Source: Asterochloris sp. CNOR1 (lineage: Eukaryota > Chlorophyta > Trebouxiophyceae > Trebouxiales > Trebouxiaceae). Taken from it: a DNA stretch of 64,000 nt. Of this stretch, positions 29,658-38,996 are shown piece after piece. How positions within the stretch are numbered: the first letter of the stretch is position 1; each line of letters starts with the position of its first letter. The position numbers and the translations under genes are program-made. The notes beneath the pieces were generated by a model. It had not been told where the DNA came from. It saw nothing but the letters and a program-made list of their open reading frames with translations, and did not search any database. The stretch covers positions 868,001-932,000 of the forward strand of contig OZ017750.1 of the NCBI GenBank assembly GCA_963969365.1, given 5' to 3'.

Positions 29658-30271
29658 TGAGCCTGCAGCATCAACAACAGCAGAAGTGAAGAATTGGAAA
29701 ACACAACACATCCAGTCCCAAGCGTGTCTGGCGGTGCTGGATTCTGCCTAGCATGTAGCTTCAGGCTGGTCCAACCGCACAAGGACCTGCTTGACGGGCT
29801 ATCGGATGCTCACAGCATGGGTGAGTTGGCATTGACCACTAGACTGGGCATGCTCCTGGTGGCCTGAAAACCTTCCCAATCGAGGCTAGGCAGGGCTGAC
29901 CAGGCAGGGGCACCACTGGCATGTGCAGCATGGAGCTCAGCATTGTTGCGGGACCCACCGCCAGCAATGGGTCTGCCAGGCGTTTGTGTGGCTTGGTGAT
30001 CGCTGCAGGTGCCGGGAGCTCGCCTGAGGGAGGCAGCAAGGATGAGAGCCCCAGCTGATCACTGGCAATCCAGAGATTTGAGCTTTCTTGCAAACCCACG
30101 CTTCGTCTGCACCAGGTCCAAGCGCTGCAGGACAAGCATCAGCACTCTGTGCAGGGGCTGAGAGAGTCCTGACCCAGATCCTGCCATGGTGAGCCATGTG
30201 TCTGTGAGGATGTGACTTGGCACCCCTTCATGATGTTTGCTGCTGTGGTGTGTTCGAGACACGGCTGATTC
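29658..30271. other. intergenic region between divergent genes
   Basis: About 614 bases between the starts of the C2-like gene (-) and UMP1 (+). Short open frames on the minus strand have no recognisable content. It presumably holds both promoters; no element is clear. Confidence 0.4.
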
Positions 30272-31102
30272 ATGCAGGAGGAGCAATCTGAGCTACCTAT
30301 GCTCAGGGAGCCTCATGACACAATGCGTCTGGGTTTGAGCAGCTTGAAGGAGGACGTCTCCACATCGCACCCAGTGGAGGCCATCCAGAAGCAGGTGACA
30401 TGCCAGACCACGAGCGACTCGATGTCAAATGCTGCTGGGATGCCTCACTCAGCTGTCAGAAGCCTTTTCCTGCCATTGTGCTTGCCTTGAGCATTCAAGC
30501 ATTTACACATACACTGTCTCCACATCGGCCCCTTCTTGTGTGCACTGCAGTGGTATGCATGGCTTCTGCAGTGATGGGGTCGATGTGTCAGGCATTTGCC
30601 GTCCAGCACTGTATTGCTTCCTTTCCAGTTCATACCTCAGTTAGCTTGATCGTCTGCTTGCAGCTCAAGCTGGACCTGTGCTTTCAGATGTCGAGCATCT
30701 CTCACACTGCCTCTTTGAATGCAATGCAGCACGCTCAGCAGCACGGCTCTGGGCAAGACGCTGCGCTGAGGAATACCTATGGAGGTGCATTCCCTGCCCG
30801 CATGGCGCTGGACAGGCAGATCCTGACCAGGTGAGGGCTAGTTGCATAGCAAGGCACTGCCTGCCCAGCACTTTTGAGGGCATGTGTAAGGTGGATGCTC
30901 TTGACAATGCAGGGTGCAGCGTCTGCCCGGTCTGCCCTCATCGCATCTTGGCCTAGAATCCTTGACAGGGGACCTGGACGACTTCAGCTTTGGGTCATAC
31001 CTTGGCACCATGGCGGAAGCAGAGGCCGGAAAGCCTGACATGCACAGCATCATGGAGCAGAAGCTGAAGATGGGAACAAAGCCTGTCTCAAGGCGAATCT
31101 GA
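30272..31102 (+). CDS. UMP1: UMP1/POMP, 20S proteasome maturation factor
   Basis: Three exons join in phase: 30272-30394, 30730-30830 and 30913-31102, giving 137 aa, the usual size for this family (about 140). It assists assembly of half-proteasomes and is degraded as the first substrate. Conserved blocks are EPHDTMRLGLSSLKEDV and HPVEAIQKQ in exon 1, ALRNTYGGAFPARMALDRQI in exon 2, and RLPGLPSSHLGLESLTGD in exon 3. The acceptor at 30730 was chosen because it gives the family spacing between HPVEAIQ and the RNTYG block; a nearer acceptor at 30664 would insert 22 extra residues. The STIL homologue begins only 68 bases after its stop codon. Confidence 0.93.
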
Positions 31103-31170
31103 GAGCCTCAATATGCATAGGGCATGGCTTAACCCTTTTGCTGTGAACTTGAACGGATGCACGTCGTTCA
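31103..31170 (+). other. very short spacer between UMP1 and the STIL homologue
   Basis: Sixty-eight bases separate the UMP1 TGA from the first usable ATG of the next gene on the same strand. An in-frame TGA at 31150 shows the downstream frame does not simply extend further left. Such spacing leaves little room for separate 3' and 5' untranslated regions, so overlap of transcripts or a shared transcript is possible. Confidence 0.55.
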
Positions 31171-34100
31171 ATGGGGAGTCAGGGCCTTTGCGGCAGGGCG
31201 TCACCAGGATGGTCAGCAGGCAGTGCGCCAGATCGGGCCAAGTTTGACCAGGCTCAAACTGGGCACAAGCGAGATGGAAACCTGCCTGCCTCAGTCCGTT
31301 CGGATGTGAGCAGCAGTGCTGTCAGGGCATGGAGGTTTCCAAGCAGCAGGAGGTGTCTGTGGGACCGGACTTGCACTGGGCAGGCCCTGACCCTGCAAGC
31401 AGAGGTGGGGCACTGCTGTGTCGATGGGTTCATTGGTGTGCGATTGATGGTGGCACATCACCATTACTGGTGTATGCAGGACCACGTCCCTCACGTCCTC
31501 GTGGGCCAGCAGGTGCTCGCCATGCTGCCTGCAGCACACAGCCCATTGCAGCTGTCTGCCAATTGGCACGTGCTGCCCAGTGGAGGCCTGCAGCTGTCCG
31601 TAGGTGAGCACCACTGCATCAAAGCAGCCATCACAGTGTTGCACAAGCTGTCACAGGTCCATCATGCCTGAACATTGCAAGGCAGGGCCCTCTGGCGGTC
31701 ATGCTCTCATCCACACAGCCCAAGCTTGTTGCTGCGTGGCAGGTACAGCAGCGGGAGCGGCGGGAGGCAGCCCATTGAAGGTGTTGGCAGGCCCAGCAGG
31801 GGAGCAGGGCAGTGGCCAGGCGTGCTGCACCAGCAGCAGCATGATGCACAGCATGGATGGCCTGGCAGGGGCCACGCAGCAGGCTTGGCAGACTCGGGGC
31901 CCTGTGGCACTTGCGCAGGTAAGCAGCAGGCTTGGAAGTCCTTTGCCGCCACAGCCAGAGTCTTGCAGGGTCGGTTGAGGCTGCTTGAAGGAGCTTTGAC
32001 ATGCTGCACAGCCATCTCACATACCTGAGATTGCAAGCAGAGAGGCTGCATGGCATGGAGGCACCCCGCAAATGCTCCCTGTCCACTCCTCACGCACAGG
32101 TGCAGCCCTCCTAGCCGCCAATGCATGCCCTGCAGGTGTGTCAGGTCAGCTGCCACAGCCAACAGGACGAGCTGCATTGCCTCATCGTCTTGCCGGGCTG
32201 CAGTGCAACCCTGCGCCCCATCTACAGCAAGCGCGTGTGCAACCTGCCCCTTGCGCAGACCCTGGCTGAGGATCTTCGGCAGAGGCACCAGCACCCACAG
32301 GTTGTGTCAGCGCAGAGCGGCCTGCTGTCCATGGACCAGGCTCGGAGCCTCCTGCCCCTGCTGGCAGACGACCCGACAGTGAGGGGGACACAGCAATGGC
32401 AGACTGCATGTTAGTCTGCTGGCTGGGCAGGCCTGAGACAATAGATGTGCCCAGCATCTCCCATTGCACATCGCCACACGCAACAGATGGCAAGGCAGTC
32501 CCCGCAAGAGCGGCCCTTGCAACTGTGACCTCAGATGCCCACAGTTGGTTGCACGAACCTGTTGTCTTGGGTCGGAATCAGTGGAGCAGTGCCCCCAGGT
32601 GTCTGCATGTTCCAAGCACAGGCGTACCATTCATGGCTGCCATGGCTGAGGTGGTCCCTTCATGGCCCTGCAGGCCTACACGGTGCCAGTGGTCGGAGTC
32701 TGGGTCAGTGGAGTGGCTAGCGCCAGCCACCCCCTTGTCTGGGCAGCCTGCCTCAAGTTCCTGGCCAGCGGGCAGCTACAGGACAAGGCACTAATGGCAG
32801 ACGGCGCATTCCTGCTTCTGCTCTACCAGACAGGTTTGCGGAGGCGTTTCAGTAGCCTGCTATCTGCTGGTCCCAGCACACAAGCTCTGTATGCCCAGCT
32901 CATCTGCTGCCTATGCGCTGCTCACATTGTGCATGCGGCAGTCCCTCCATATGTCGCTGTGCCATGCTGATTCCCCACGTCTGCAGGCACAGCCCAGCCG
33001 GCCTGCTTTGAGGTGCATGTCACAGGGCATGAGGGCAGCATTCCTGTGACGATGTGGCGGGGGAACATCAGCCTGCGCTCAGGCAGCAGGGTCGTGGGGG
33101 ATCACCTCAAGTGCCCTCTCGTCCAGCTGCGGCACATCACTGCAGCCCTGCCCATCAGCCCAGGTGAGGCATTGCTGCTGCTGTGCTCTGCCCTGCCAGG
33201 GCTGGAGCCTTGCACAAAGCAGATGCCTTTGCTTGTCCATCTTTTCCTTGTGGCAGCGCGGCAGGTGACGGCTGACCCTAGGCTGGCTGATGGAGACAGA
33301 GCCCCTGCTGCCTGCTGCTGCACAGGGGCCACCCTCCTGCTGTGCAGGTCACAAGCAGGGCGACCTGCCAGGCGTCAAGCTGTTGCCCTCACATGGCAGC
33401 CCAGGCACTGGATCCGCTGTGCGACAGAGCAGCCCAGGTCGGTGCAGCAGAGCCTCTCCCCATGTGCAACCATGCTCACTGTGAACCACAGATCCAGCAA
33501 GCCCGCCATTTCTGCTGGCTTGCTTTGAAGTCGCAGAAGGCAGCCGTGTGCTCGGTCACCACCGATGGGTATCATCGGACAAGCTGACTGGCCTGCTGCT
33601 GCATGCAGGCGTCTCCAGCGAGGAGCCTGCACCACGCCAGGGCACGCTGCCGCGCCCCCACACGCCACCCAGCAGCTCCTTTGCGCAGCTTCAGGGCAGC
33701 AGGCCCCTGGCAGTGCGCAGCCGCATGGGCAGCGCCACGCCAAGCGGTCCTGCAGTCTGCACCCATCCACCCTCAGGCGTGCGGGTCAGCCCAGCAGCTG
33801 CAGCCAGTGGCGGCCACAGCAGCAGCCCAGTTCCGGGAGTGGTTGCAGCGCTGCCCTCTGCCACTGTGCCTCCCTGGGTGAATGCTGGACACAGTGCTGG
33901 GTTCCCTCCCAGCTTTGGGGGTGCTGCACCTCTGGGTGGTGGGTGGCAGGGGGCGCCCTGGAGCTATGCAGAGTCAGGCGGCATGGAGTACGCCCAGATG
34001 TGGACCCCCCCGCAGGAGCATGGTGGGGATGTGACAGCATCCTGGCAGGCGCCAGGGCCAGGCATGCAGCAGTGGAGGCCCCCAGGGTTGGCCCAGCCAG

Positions 34101-36381
34101 ACGCTGTGGCTCTGCAGCAGGAGGTGGCGGACCTGAGGCAGCAGGTAAGGAGCCCATGCCATTCCCCTGCCGCAAAGGCCTGCTTGCTGCTTGGCTGCTC
34201 GGCAGGTGCAGGTGCAGCCTCATGCTTGAACCTCAGCCAGGCGGGCTGGTCGCATTGCCTTTCTGCATGTCAGCAGCCCCAGGCTGTGGTGGTGGCAGGT
34301 GGCATCAGGTCACTGCCCCTCTGACTCGGACTGCTGTGGCCACAGCTGCAGGTGTTGCAGATGCAGCTGGCGTCAGTGCATGCTGAGCAGGCAGCCCCAG
34401 CAGCACCTCTGCCTGCGCCCACCTCCAGCTGCGGGGTGAACACCACCTTCGTCTGGCGGCCAGAGGCAGGCAGCAGCCGCAGGGGCAGCCCAGCGTGCTC
34501 GCCTCAGCAGGCCAGCTCAAGTGCCGCACTGCAGTCTATCGCTGCGGCAGGCTCTGCCCTTGATGTGGTGACCCAGGAAGAGGACAAGTCACTCCACCAG
34601 GTACAGCTGTCAGAGCGTGCCAGGGGAGGGGAGCCAGACCGGCATGGTGGCCAGCACGGCGCCGGCATGAGGCAGCAGCATGGGCCGCTGCAGAGCACTG
34701 GCAGCCCCTCTAGCGCTGCTCCCATGCCCAGGCACCCAGCTGACCTGCAGCCGCCGCCTGCTGCTGCCACATTGAAGGATGAAGGGCACGCCAGCGAGCA
34801 GAGCTTTGCCTCGAGCACTGCCCGCAGCAGTGTGGCCAGCAGGAGGCCAGAGGGTGGCGCAGCAGCTCATGCGAGGCTGCTACACCTGCAGCAGCTGGAG
34901 CCGGGCACTCCCCCGGCCTCTGGCGGCCGGGACAGTGATCAGTCACTGGGCTTGGCCAGGCCAGACAGCCCCGGCACGCAGAGCCCGGCTGGCACGGCAG
35001 AGCAGAGCTGGCTACCAGAGGGAGGACCTGCGAGTCTCCCAGACGAGCAGGCAGCGCAACAGCAGCCAGGGCCTGCACAACACGGCACTCCTGCTGCTGG
35101 TGCTGGGGTGGAGCACCGCGCTTTGGCCAGCCATGCAGCAGCAGAGGCTGGGCAGGGCAGCGGGCAGCAGCCCGCAGGCAGCGTGCTGCCGACTGCGCTG
35201 TGGCAGAAGCAGAGTGTGCTGGCCGGCAGGCTGCACAGCCAGGGGCGCCCCTCTGCACTGCTTCATCACAGCAGCAGCAGCAACGACCTGGCGCCCAGCC
35301 TGAGCTCTGATGGGGAGGACCCCGGCCCCATGGCTGGTGCAGAGCAGAGCCTGCCATCTAATCTGGATTCTGCCTGGGGCAGCATGGACCAGAGCAGCGC
35401 CCCCCAGGCCGCCAGCACAGGCATGCTGGAAGCCTCGCCCCAGCCCAGCAGGCCGCCGCTGCTCGATGCGAGGAGATCCACAGCCGCCAGCAGCTTGGGC
35501 GCCCTGCGCTCTGGCACTGCGCCAGGCAGGGAACACGTGCGGGCCTGTGGGGCGGGGCCAGGGCTGCGCAGCTCCAGCACAGGGGCCCCTGCCACCAGTG
35601 GCTGCATGTCCATTGTGCGCACGCAGTTCCTCCCGGCGCCAGAGCCCTCGGAATCGGACGACGATGAGGTGAGAGGGGGGGCTGCAGGTTGGTGACTCGA
35701 TGGTCCATGTTGCCCAGCTCTGTTCCACGCTGCAGCTGAGATGTTGGGGGCACCTGTCCTGCTGGATGCAACAGCCCTGACAAACCTTGTCAGTGTGCCG
35801 TGCTCAATGGGCTGCACGCAGCTCCAATGTGCGGTTAGGGACCCAGGACACGCTTCTGTCTGCATGTCCCTCTGGACATATCTTGCTGCAGAACTGGCAG
35901 AGTGGACAGGGTACAAGTCTCTAACTTTGAATGCGGGGACCAGCAACCCGCGAGAGTGGCTGCTGCAGGATGCTAGGCTGGAACGGAAGTATGGCATCAT
36001 GCGCGGCATCAGCAGTGATGGCAATGATGACAGCACAGCCGTCATTGCAGCAGGTGACCTGCTCTTTGAGCCCAATGACTGAGATAGTCCAGCATGTGAT
36101 CAGCTGTGCTTTAGCATTCTGTAAGGCTTCACTGCTGCATTTCAGTGTTGTCATTCTGCCCTGCAGATCCAGATAGCAGTTTCCTGCCAGACATGTCGCT
36201 GGACTCGCGCCTGTACCTGCAGATGCATGGCCTGCTGCAAGCTTCAGCTGCTGTACCCCTCTTTGCATCGCCAGCTGCAATCGTGAGCAATCCCATGTTG
36301 CCACCATTGACGACAAGGCGGCATCCTGCGGATGTGACACTGAGAGCTCTGGACAAAGGCAGCACCATTGACCTTGTCTAG
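31171..36381 (+). CDS. STIL: STIL/Ana2/SAS-5-like centriole duplication protein
   Basis: Eleven exons join in phase: 31171-31404, 31480-31603, 31743-31918, 32136-32378, 32674-32833, 32987-33163, 33348-33437, 33609-34144, 34346-35687, 35892-36053 and 36167-36381 (1,152 aa; animal STIL is about 1,290). The family recruits SAS-6 to start the cartwheel of a new centriole under Plk4 control. Three blocks match animal STIL. First, the N-terminal domain: FPSSRRCLWDRTCTGQALTL, GLLSMDQARSLLPLLADDP and VPVVGVWVSGV followed by HPLVWAACLKFLAS (residues about 50-310). Second, a short central coiled coil: ALQQEVADLRQQ joined to LQVLQMQLASVHAEQ (about 568-597). Third, a STAN motif near the end: MSLDSRLYLQMHGLLQA (about 1090-1106). 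The linkers are Ser/Gly/Pro/Gln-rich and disordered, as in animals. The start at 31171 is the only in-frame ATG before the first conserved block. Confidence 0.87.
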
Positions 36382-37591: not shown

Positions 37592-38996
37592 CTATGGAAA
37601 TAGTGGCTCTGCTGCGCAAATATCATAGTACTCCCCCTTCTTGCGGTTCTGCAGGACAGGGTCACACTGCTGACAGCGTGCAGCGAGCGCCACCCTGTAG
37701 TCTTGAGCGCACACACCTGCATAGCGCACAGCTGGACTGTGTCTACAACAGCCACCCCTCCATCAATGTCGGTCAAGCTGCTGCCCTGCACACAACATTG
37801 AAGCCTGCCATCAAGCACAAAGACCTCAGCAGGTGAGCACTATGCCCCCACAGGGGCACCACAAGTGAATGAGTGCGTTGCACACAGACTGCTCTCACCT
37901 CCTCACACTGCAGGGGCCATTGCTTCTGCTTCAGCTGATTGGAAAAGGGGCGCTGCAGACGCTTGGCAATGGTCAGATGAGGGGTGCAGGGACGCTCATC
38001 AGTGCAGGAAAACCCTGCTTCAGCAAAGTGCAGCCTGAGCGCCTTTGACAGGCTTAGCAGGTGCTGGCAGCCCTCGTCCTGCACAAGGTCCAGATACAGC
38101 ACCTGCAGGGTGACAGAGTGCCGTCTGAGGACCTGTGCCAAGATGAGCAGTCACATGTAGATGACGCCGAGCTGAGCGCTTGCTGAGACACTGGCAGCTG
38201 TTCCCTTGTATCAGGCCTCAGCAGAGTACATGCAGGGATGGAAGCAGGTGCTGAGCACTCGAGCCAGGCCGAACAGGTGCTGGCAGTTCGTGTTGCCAGC
38301 CAGAGGCTGGATTCCAGCCCCTGCTGGTCAGGGTGAGCGTCAGGAGCTCACCATTCAACAGTGTGTAAGATGAGACTGATAAATCTTGATGGGGATGGTC
38401 CAGCCACAAAAGCTGGCAGCAAGACCTAGTGACAAGCAACATCACAGCAGACTCACCTGCCCCCGGAAGTGGCCCAGGCCCCTGAAGGTCAGCTGGAAAG
38501 GGGCGGCCGGCAGGCCTGCAGCCGCACCCAGAGCTCGCAGCTTGGCAGTGGCCGCTGTCAGGGCAGCAGTGGCCTCCTTTCGGCGCTCAGGCGGGATTGC
38601 CATCACGCTGAGGGTGATGTGGGCTGTCGCTGCCTCCACGAAGCACTGCTTGAGCTTCTTGCTATGCCCCAGCAGCGCCGCCTGCACCTCCTCTATTGCT
38701 GCGACCAGCTGCGGCATCTGGCAGAGCTGCACCGCCAGGAAGTGGGTTGGACGTGGCTTGGCAGGCTCCTGTTGGTTCCTGTACCTTCAACACATGGAGG
38801 TGAAGTCTGGACTTGTGTCTGAATTGTCAATGAAACGGGTGCGGTCTTACCTTTTGTAGCTGGCCTTGGACCTGCCACTGGCAGCAGCGGGCTGAGGTGG
38901 CCTTTGCTGCAGTAAGCTCTCCTCATCTCCAGCCTGCTCAAGGACTTCCTGTGTGCCATCAGAGAGTGCACCAGCATTGGTGCTGTCCAAACTCAT
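37592..38996 (-). CDS. AKAP7-like 2H phosphoesterase (2'-5' RNA ligase-like)
   Basis: Five exons join in phase: 38996-38851, 38784-38457, 38102-37899, 37785-37717 and 37648-37592, giving 267 aa. The core starts PTHFLAVQLCQMPQL. The two His-x-Thr/Ser-type catalytic motifs of the 2H superfamily are present: AHITLSVM (about residues 103-110) and PHLTIAKRL (about 199-207). The end reads VVDTVQLCAMQ and KKGEYYDICAAEPLFP, as in the AKAP7 NLS domain family (the central domain of AKAP7 and its plant relatives). Related enzymes cleave 2'-5' oligoadenylates or cyclic phosphates; the substrate here is unknown. It is divergent from the Cu-ATPase gene, with 217 bases between starts. Confidence 0.85.

Follow-up and report, generated by a model that had tools for sequence, protein, structure and literature searches.

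A probable STIL/Ana2 orthologue in the lichen green alga Asterochloris

A STIL-like gene in a green alga

SAS-5, Ana2 and STIL are regarded as functional equivalents, described in passages of PMC4113102 as worm, fly and human proteins. Ana2 has a CR2 motif, a coiled coil and a STAN motif (passages of PMC4471874), and in animal STIL the PRxxPxP motif of CR2 (consensus from PMC4554922) binds the TCP domain of CPAP, according to passages of PMC4554922 and PMC3776556. Furthermore, residues S1061, S1116 and T1119 are critical for SAS-6 binding in vitro, as passages of PMC4220463 report. Here we describe a gene at positions 31171-36381, on the forward strand, of a 64,000-nucleotide stretch of Asterochloris sp. 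CNOR1 (assembly GCA_963969365.1, contig OZ017750.1, positions 868,001 to 932,000; the window hereafter). We propose, with a probability of roughly 0.87, that it is the STIL/Ana2 orthologue of this lichen green alga, found in one copy and linking the SAS-6 cartwheel to the CPAP wall.

A STIL homologue with the family's N-terminal domain had been proposed here in a preliminary description made from the sequence, and a profile search bears this out. Pfam STIL_N matches residues 180-337 with 97.1 bits (cut-off 27; E-value 1.4e-27), and the core (residues 175-345) gives z 35.4 against crinoid STIL, a score attained by 0 of 2,000 shuffled sequences. Residues 1-120 include an exon-1 block, RFPSSRRCLWDRTCTG (31333-31380), that the preliminary description left unnamed; this region gives z 7.7 against Anneissia (0/2,000 shuffles) and z 3.1 against Antedon (25/2,000). 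Both crinoids have the block as well, as do Trebouxia, Edaphochlamys and three of the four metagenome relatives. STIL_N has one match in the 56.4-Mb, 21-contig genome that contains the window.

At the other end of the protein, the second half of the STAN motif, DMSLDSRLYLQMHGLLQ (36190-36240), can be recognised with moderate confidence. The exon-11 block DMSLDSRLYLQMHGLLQAS aligns gap-free to crinoid NMSMASMKYLEKHGLLDTS. We built STAN profiles from two crinoids, because the search with crinoid STAN returned only these two, and ran them against 1,856 sequences (1,847 open reading frames of the window and nine non-animal STIL proteins). The exon's open reading frame came first with a 22-position profile of the second half (E 0.014; Trebouxia protein P0002, 0.5), and again with an 80-position profile (0.16), followed by P0002 (0.52) and an unrelated open reading frame (2.3). 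In pairwise comparison, shuffles attained the observed score 8 times in 2,000 against Anneissia and 46 times in 2,000 against Antedon; the corresponding counts are 5 and 8 for P0002 and 40 and 55 for the second Trebouxia protein, P0003. Serines S1060 and S1063 of our 1,120-residue model presumably occupy the places of human S1116 and T1119. In both Trebouxia relatives a single protein carries the STAN block as well as the N-terminal domain, as in the join proposed here.

A fourth block, missed in the preliminary description, is a CPAP-binding-like motif, PR-x(3-4)-P-x-P, which in Asterochloris reads PRQGTLPRP (residues 410-418; 33632-33658). We scanned the linkers between STIL_N and the coiled coil of ten proteins for PR-x(2-4)-P-x-P, leaving out the public model P0001 of the same gene; the motif was found in all eight non-animal proteins, that is, in the alga and the seven relatives examined, with a gap that is always three or four residues. 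Between this motif and the C-terminus, reading of the sequence gives an unbroken 4-3 spacing of leucine and valine (L570-V574-L577-L581-L584-L588-V591). An AlphaFold model with Trebouxia P0003 placed first (alignment A1) has a helix at 616-640 over the matching block, at a predicted local distance difference test score (pLDDT) of about 60; the P0003 model is otherwise unusable (mean pLDDT 32).

Several observations weigh against this identification. The coiled coil aligns to those of the crinoids no better than shuffled sequences do (469/2,000 and 367/2,000), and Pfam CC_STIL is not among the listed matches of the algal protein; the same profile reaches only E 0.99 on crinoid P0009 itself. The evidence for STAN amounts to about 17 residues, and the whole join reaches just E 0.26 with the short profile and 2.6, in fourth place, with the 80-position one. 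Comparison with hhalign gives P-values of 0.018 and 0.0083 at a probability of just 2.5% and 4.8%. The first half of STAN, the S1061 region with the PLK4 site, is unrecognisable in Asterochloris (z -1.1 and -1.2). Among the four metagenome relatives, three come to an end lacking the second half of STAN, and the fourth is cut before reaching it. Finally, the PR form of the CR2 motif is found in neither of the two crinoids in the linker scan, and the algal motif is one to two residues wider than animal PRxxPxP. Thus, of the three conserved blocks that had been counted, the N-terminal domain stands strongly and the second half of STAN moderately, and the coiled coil is weak by sequence.

For the relatives, comparisons of STAN's first half point in different directions, and we do not take them to show homology. 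The end of P0006 gives z 6.5 against Anneissia (0/1,000 shuffles) and 3.9 against Antedon (5/1,000), and P0002, P0003, P0005 and P0008 give z 0.8-2.0; a profile of the non-animal first halves listed neither crinoid, while shuffles were listed, so that one good pair was set against a failed profile test. The crinoid C-terminal end LDVNRLKQLPKLL (CR4/TIM) has no counterpart by eye at the algal C-terminus. Towards the C-terminal end of their STIL part, all eight non-animal proteins have an acidic-serine motif, VRTQF..P...SDSDDE or KVRYTPLSDEESEDEE; P0007 ends inside it.

It could be argued that the STAN exon is unused, or is included in some transcripts only, and that the normal protein is STAN-less. 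The public model P0001 continues beyond the donor site of intron 10 to a stop after ...AAGDLLFEPND, and the metagenome proteins P0005, P0006 and P0008 stop shortly past the acidic motif, lacking STAN's second half. However, both Trebouxia proteins continue directly into SSSSFLPDMSLDSR, the exon's open reading frame is the top match to the crinoid profile in a database that holds 1,847 open reading frames of the window, and P0001 is also without exon 1, the beginning of exon 2 and portions of exons 8 and 9. We consider a STAN-less product quite unlikely.

Partner genes, kinase and flagella

The genome holds genes for both partners, SAS-6 and CPAP. The TCP domain has one match, whose two pieces match CPAP (4bxp) with E 3.3e-21. 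Eight CPAP residues are listed as STIL contacts in zebrafish (F978, Y994, Y996, H1003, T1005, F1015, Q1019 and E1021), and the alga has the same amino acid at every one, compared with 45 of the 95 aligned positions overall (hypergeometric P 0.0018; for the second aligned block alone, 0.0054). Residues of the TCP repeat may be kept for folding, and conservation of the contacts is therefore support, not proof. SAS-6_N has two matches, one of which resembles 3q0y and its like (E about 8e-26). The second gene (L002, positions 762993-766226 of contig C1 of genome G000) has 9y9z chain 20 as its nearest SAS-6 structure (E 2.1e-17), and is likely, from its sequence, to encode a SAS6-like protein, a type that PMC3697468 reports from green algae.

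The polo box has one match in the genome, of PLK1 type; all 29 PDB structures listed for it belong to PLK1, PLK2, Cdc5 or polo-like kinase, and PLK4 is not among them. Plk4_PB1 and Plk4_PB2 gave no genome match, but the search had no positive control, and absence of PLK4 is not proved. Chlamydomonas is described as having no PLK4 in passages of PMC4888484.

These partners bear on a second alternative, that a STIL_N protein was repurposed in the algal lineage, for example as a non-centriolar scaffold, its linker motifs being chance products of proline-rich sequence. Shuffling of single linkers yields the PR motif in 0.4-15% of cases, and the coiled coil is not significant. Against this, the motif lies between STIL_N and the coiled coil in every non-animal protein examined, CPAP retains its full set of STIL contacts, SAS-6 is in the genome, and the genus has flagella. 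Repurposing seems to us as improbable as a STAN-less product. That this alga builds basal bodies at some stage, as had been suggested, agrees with passages of PMC6652019, which describe flagellated gametes and 9+2 zoospores in Asterochloris and list 314 candidate flagellar proteins; since the flagella are documented, the implied basal bodies are known and come as no surprise.

Most likely, the orthologue works as it does in animals, at the onset of basal-body assembly. Its folded N-terminal domain would dock it at the assembly site, the proline motif may bind the TCP domain of algal CPAP/SAS-4, whose contact residues are conserved, the short coiled coil would make the protein oligomeric, and a C-terminal STAN helix, identified on moderate evidence, may bind the SAS-6 spoke. 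With these contacts STIL would connect the SAS-6 cartwheel with the wall of CPAP and microtubules while flagella are being built in zoospores and gametes. Since the one polo box detected is of PLK1 type, PLK4 is probably not what controls the contact between STAN and SAS-6.

Gene structure and relatives

The join from 31171 to 36381 was reproduced from its splice signals and has 1,152 codons in 11 exons, with no stop except the terminal one; the blocks that had been quoted from it lie where they were placed, in a single frame through splicing. One junction was changed. The exon 9/10 junction at 35687/35892, used in our earlier searches, was replaced by 35668/35969, because Trebouxia does not have the 32 residues between and a better acceptor is present. 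Intron 9 is thus more likely 35669-35968, in phase 0 (donor GAG|GTGAGA, acceptor CTGCTGCAG|GAT), and the new junction, DDDE|DARLERKYG, matches SDSE|D[TI]RLEQKYG of the two Trebouxia proteins, in both of which acidic SDSDSDSE is directly followed by D[TI]RLEQKYG. The refined protein has 1,120 residues and its gene ten GT-AG introns; the 32 extra residues, which the public model P0001 also has, are probably intron.

All exons lie on the forward strand. Exon 1 (31171-31404) opens with the first ATG after an in-frame stop, a candidate start, and is followed by exons 2 (31480-31603) and 3 (31743-31918), both bounded by GT-AG introns. The STIL_N core lies in exons 4 (32136-32378; LLSMDQARSLLPLLADDP at 32322-32375) and 5 (32674-32833; VPVVGVWVSGVASASHPLVWAACLKF at 32683-32760) and ends in exon 6 (32987-33163). 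Exon 7 (33348-33437), which P0001 uses too, precedes exon 8 (33609-34144), with the CR2-like motif and the first half of the coiled coil. Exon 9 (34346-35668) holds the second half, LQVLQMQLASVHAEQ, a low-complexity linker and the acidic-serine stretch SIVRTQFLPAPEPSESDDDE (35609-35668). Refined exon 10 (35969-36053), which starts with DARLERKYG, agrees with P0002 and P0003, and exon 11 (36167-36381), with the second half of STAN and the stop, is found in both of these and not in P0001. Nothing like the YFPGDS piece of the Trebouxia N-terminus was found by pattern in the three forward frames of 29991-31410. One could also see here a gene in decay, left over in an alga that rarely forms flagella, and the long low-complexity linkers point that way; this is hardly credible against 1,120 open codons in 11 exons with GT-AG introns, a core 70% identical to that of Trebouxia, and zoospores and gametes known to be flagellated.

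Upstream, at 30319-31102 on the same strand, lies a neighbour that matches the proteasome maturation factor UMP1 (E 2e-08 in 30905-31102; the match in 30319-30834, E 0.0058, is below the cut-off), which ends 68 bases before the STIL start codon. Downstream, at 37773-38786 on the reverse strand, is a gene with an AKAP7-like 2'-5' RNA ligase-like domain.

The family had been regarded as hard to find outside animals. This is overstated, because a first protein search (E <= 0.01; the 7,995 candidates with most words in common were scored) returned five proteins labelled STIL_N in the database's own Pfam column, namely P0001, two from Trebouxia, one from Edaphochlamys and one metagenome protein, and a second search (five matches among 846, query included) added three further metagenome proteins and the crinoid Anneissia. 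The other crinoid, Antedon, came from a third search, with crinoid STAN as query (two matches among 122, query included). The search database already contains models, partial or unnamed, that bear the Pfam STIL_N label. P0001 (jgi/Astpho2/479) is the same gene, 100% identical over 85% of residues 40-400; at 891 residues it is shorter, missing exon 1, the first part of exon 2, some of exons 8 and 9 and the whole STAN exon, and it ends in intron 10. We take Astpho2 to be the Asterochloris portal. Passages of PMC6652019 name the genome they describe as that of Asterochloris glomerata Cgr/DA1pho.

The Trebouxia sp. proteins WJX82_004029 (P0002) and WJX77_007957 (P0003) are 46% and 45% identical to the alga over residues 40-400, and 93% identical to each other. 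In the core, compared over 100 alignment columns, the algal protein is 70% identical to Trebouxia, 49% to Edaphochlamys (a chlamydomonad), 41-47% to the metagenome proteins and 35% to the crinoids. An unrooted FastTree of nine sequences, without P0001 and P0002 (the same gene and a near-copy of P0003, respectively), joins Asterochloris with Trebouxia (0.958) and then with Edaphochlamys (0.965); in a brief look at horizontal transfer, the three green genera thus group together. The public Edaphochlamys debaryana model (HYH03_008991, P0004) joins the STIL_N protein to a Rieske-domain protein just past the acidic motif; it is probably two genes run together, any STAN exon having been lost from the model.

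Age of the module and comparison with known systems

The presence of STIL, CPAP and SAS-6 genes in this alga suggests that the assembly module is older than animals. According to passages of PMC10425847, the core structural parts of the centriole are universal and PLK4 control is metazoan; an algal STIL therefore fits an existing idea and does not overturn it. Purified Chlamydomonas SAS-6 forms cartwheel-like structures unaided, according to passages of PMC9592557. A literature search on STIL, covering titles, starts of abstracts and passages, found no report of a green-algal STIL, which does not show its absence from print, and neither STIL nor Ana2 turned up when the text of two reviews of the Chlamydomonas basal body (PMC4888484 and PMC6070942) was searched.

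A more speculative and rather doubtful proposal is that green algae keep a complete STIL-CPAP-SAS-6 module whose function does not need PLK4. The conserved acidic-serine block (VRTQF-like, SDSDDE-like, then KYG or KYL) would here replace the PLK4-switched first half of STAN, and could either carry a permanent charge or be a substrate of a different kinase; the STIL linker would be ancestral, and PLK4 control an addition of the animal line. With an orthologue in Asterochloris and Trebouxia, a relative with the N-terminal domain in Edaphochlamys, and the CPAP interface kept, an ancestral linker becomes testable in a flagellated alga, and with it the age and PLK4-independence of the STIL module.

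Among the described systems, the two Trebouxia proteins are like that of Asterochloris in having the exon-1 block, core, PR motif, heptads, acidic-serine motif and STAN, and differ in their longer N-terminus. Animal STIL (Anneissia P0009; Trichoplax STIL-NTD, 5oi9) shares with the alga an N-terminal domain with an F-P-x-[ST]...LW[DN]xT block, and also the second half of STAN (NMSMASMKYLEKHGLL in Anneissia), and may share a short central heptad block. The alga differs in a core just 35% identical to the crinoids, in its long low-complexity linkers, and in its PR motif, which has no counterpart in the two crinoids and is more widely spaced than the published PRxxPxP. In contrast to Drosophila Ana2 and C. 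elegans SAS-5, the algal protein keeps the N-terminal domain, and its plan is therefore closer to STIL than to Ana2/SAS-5.

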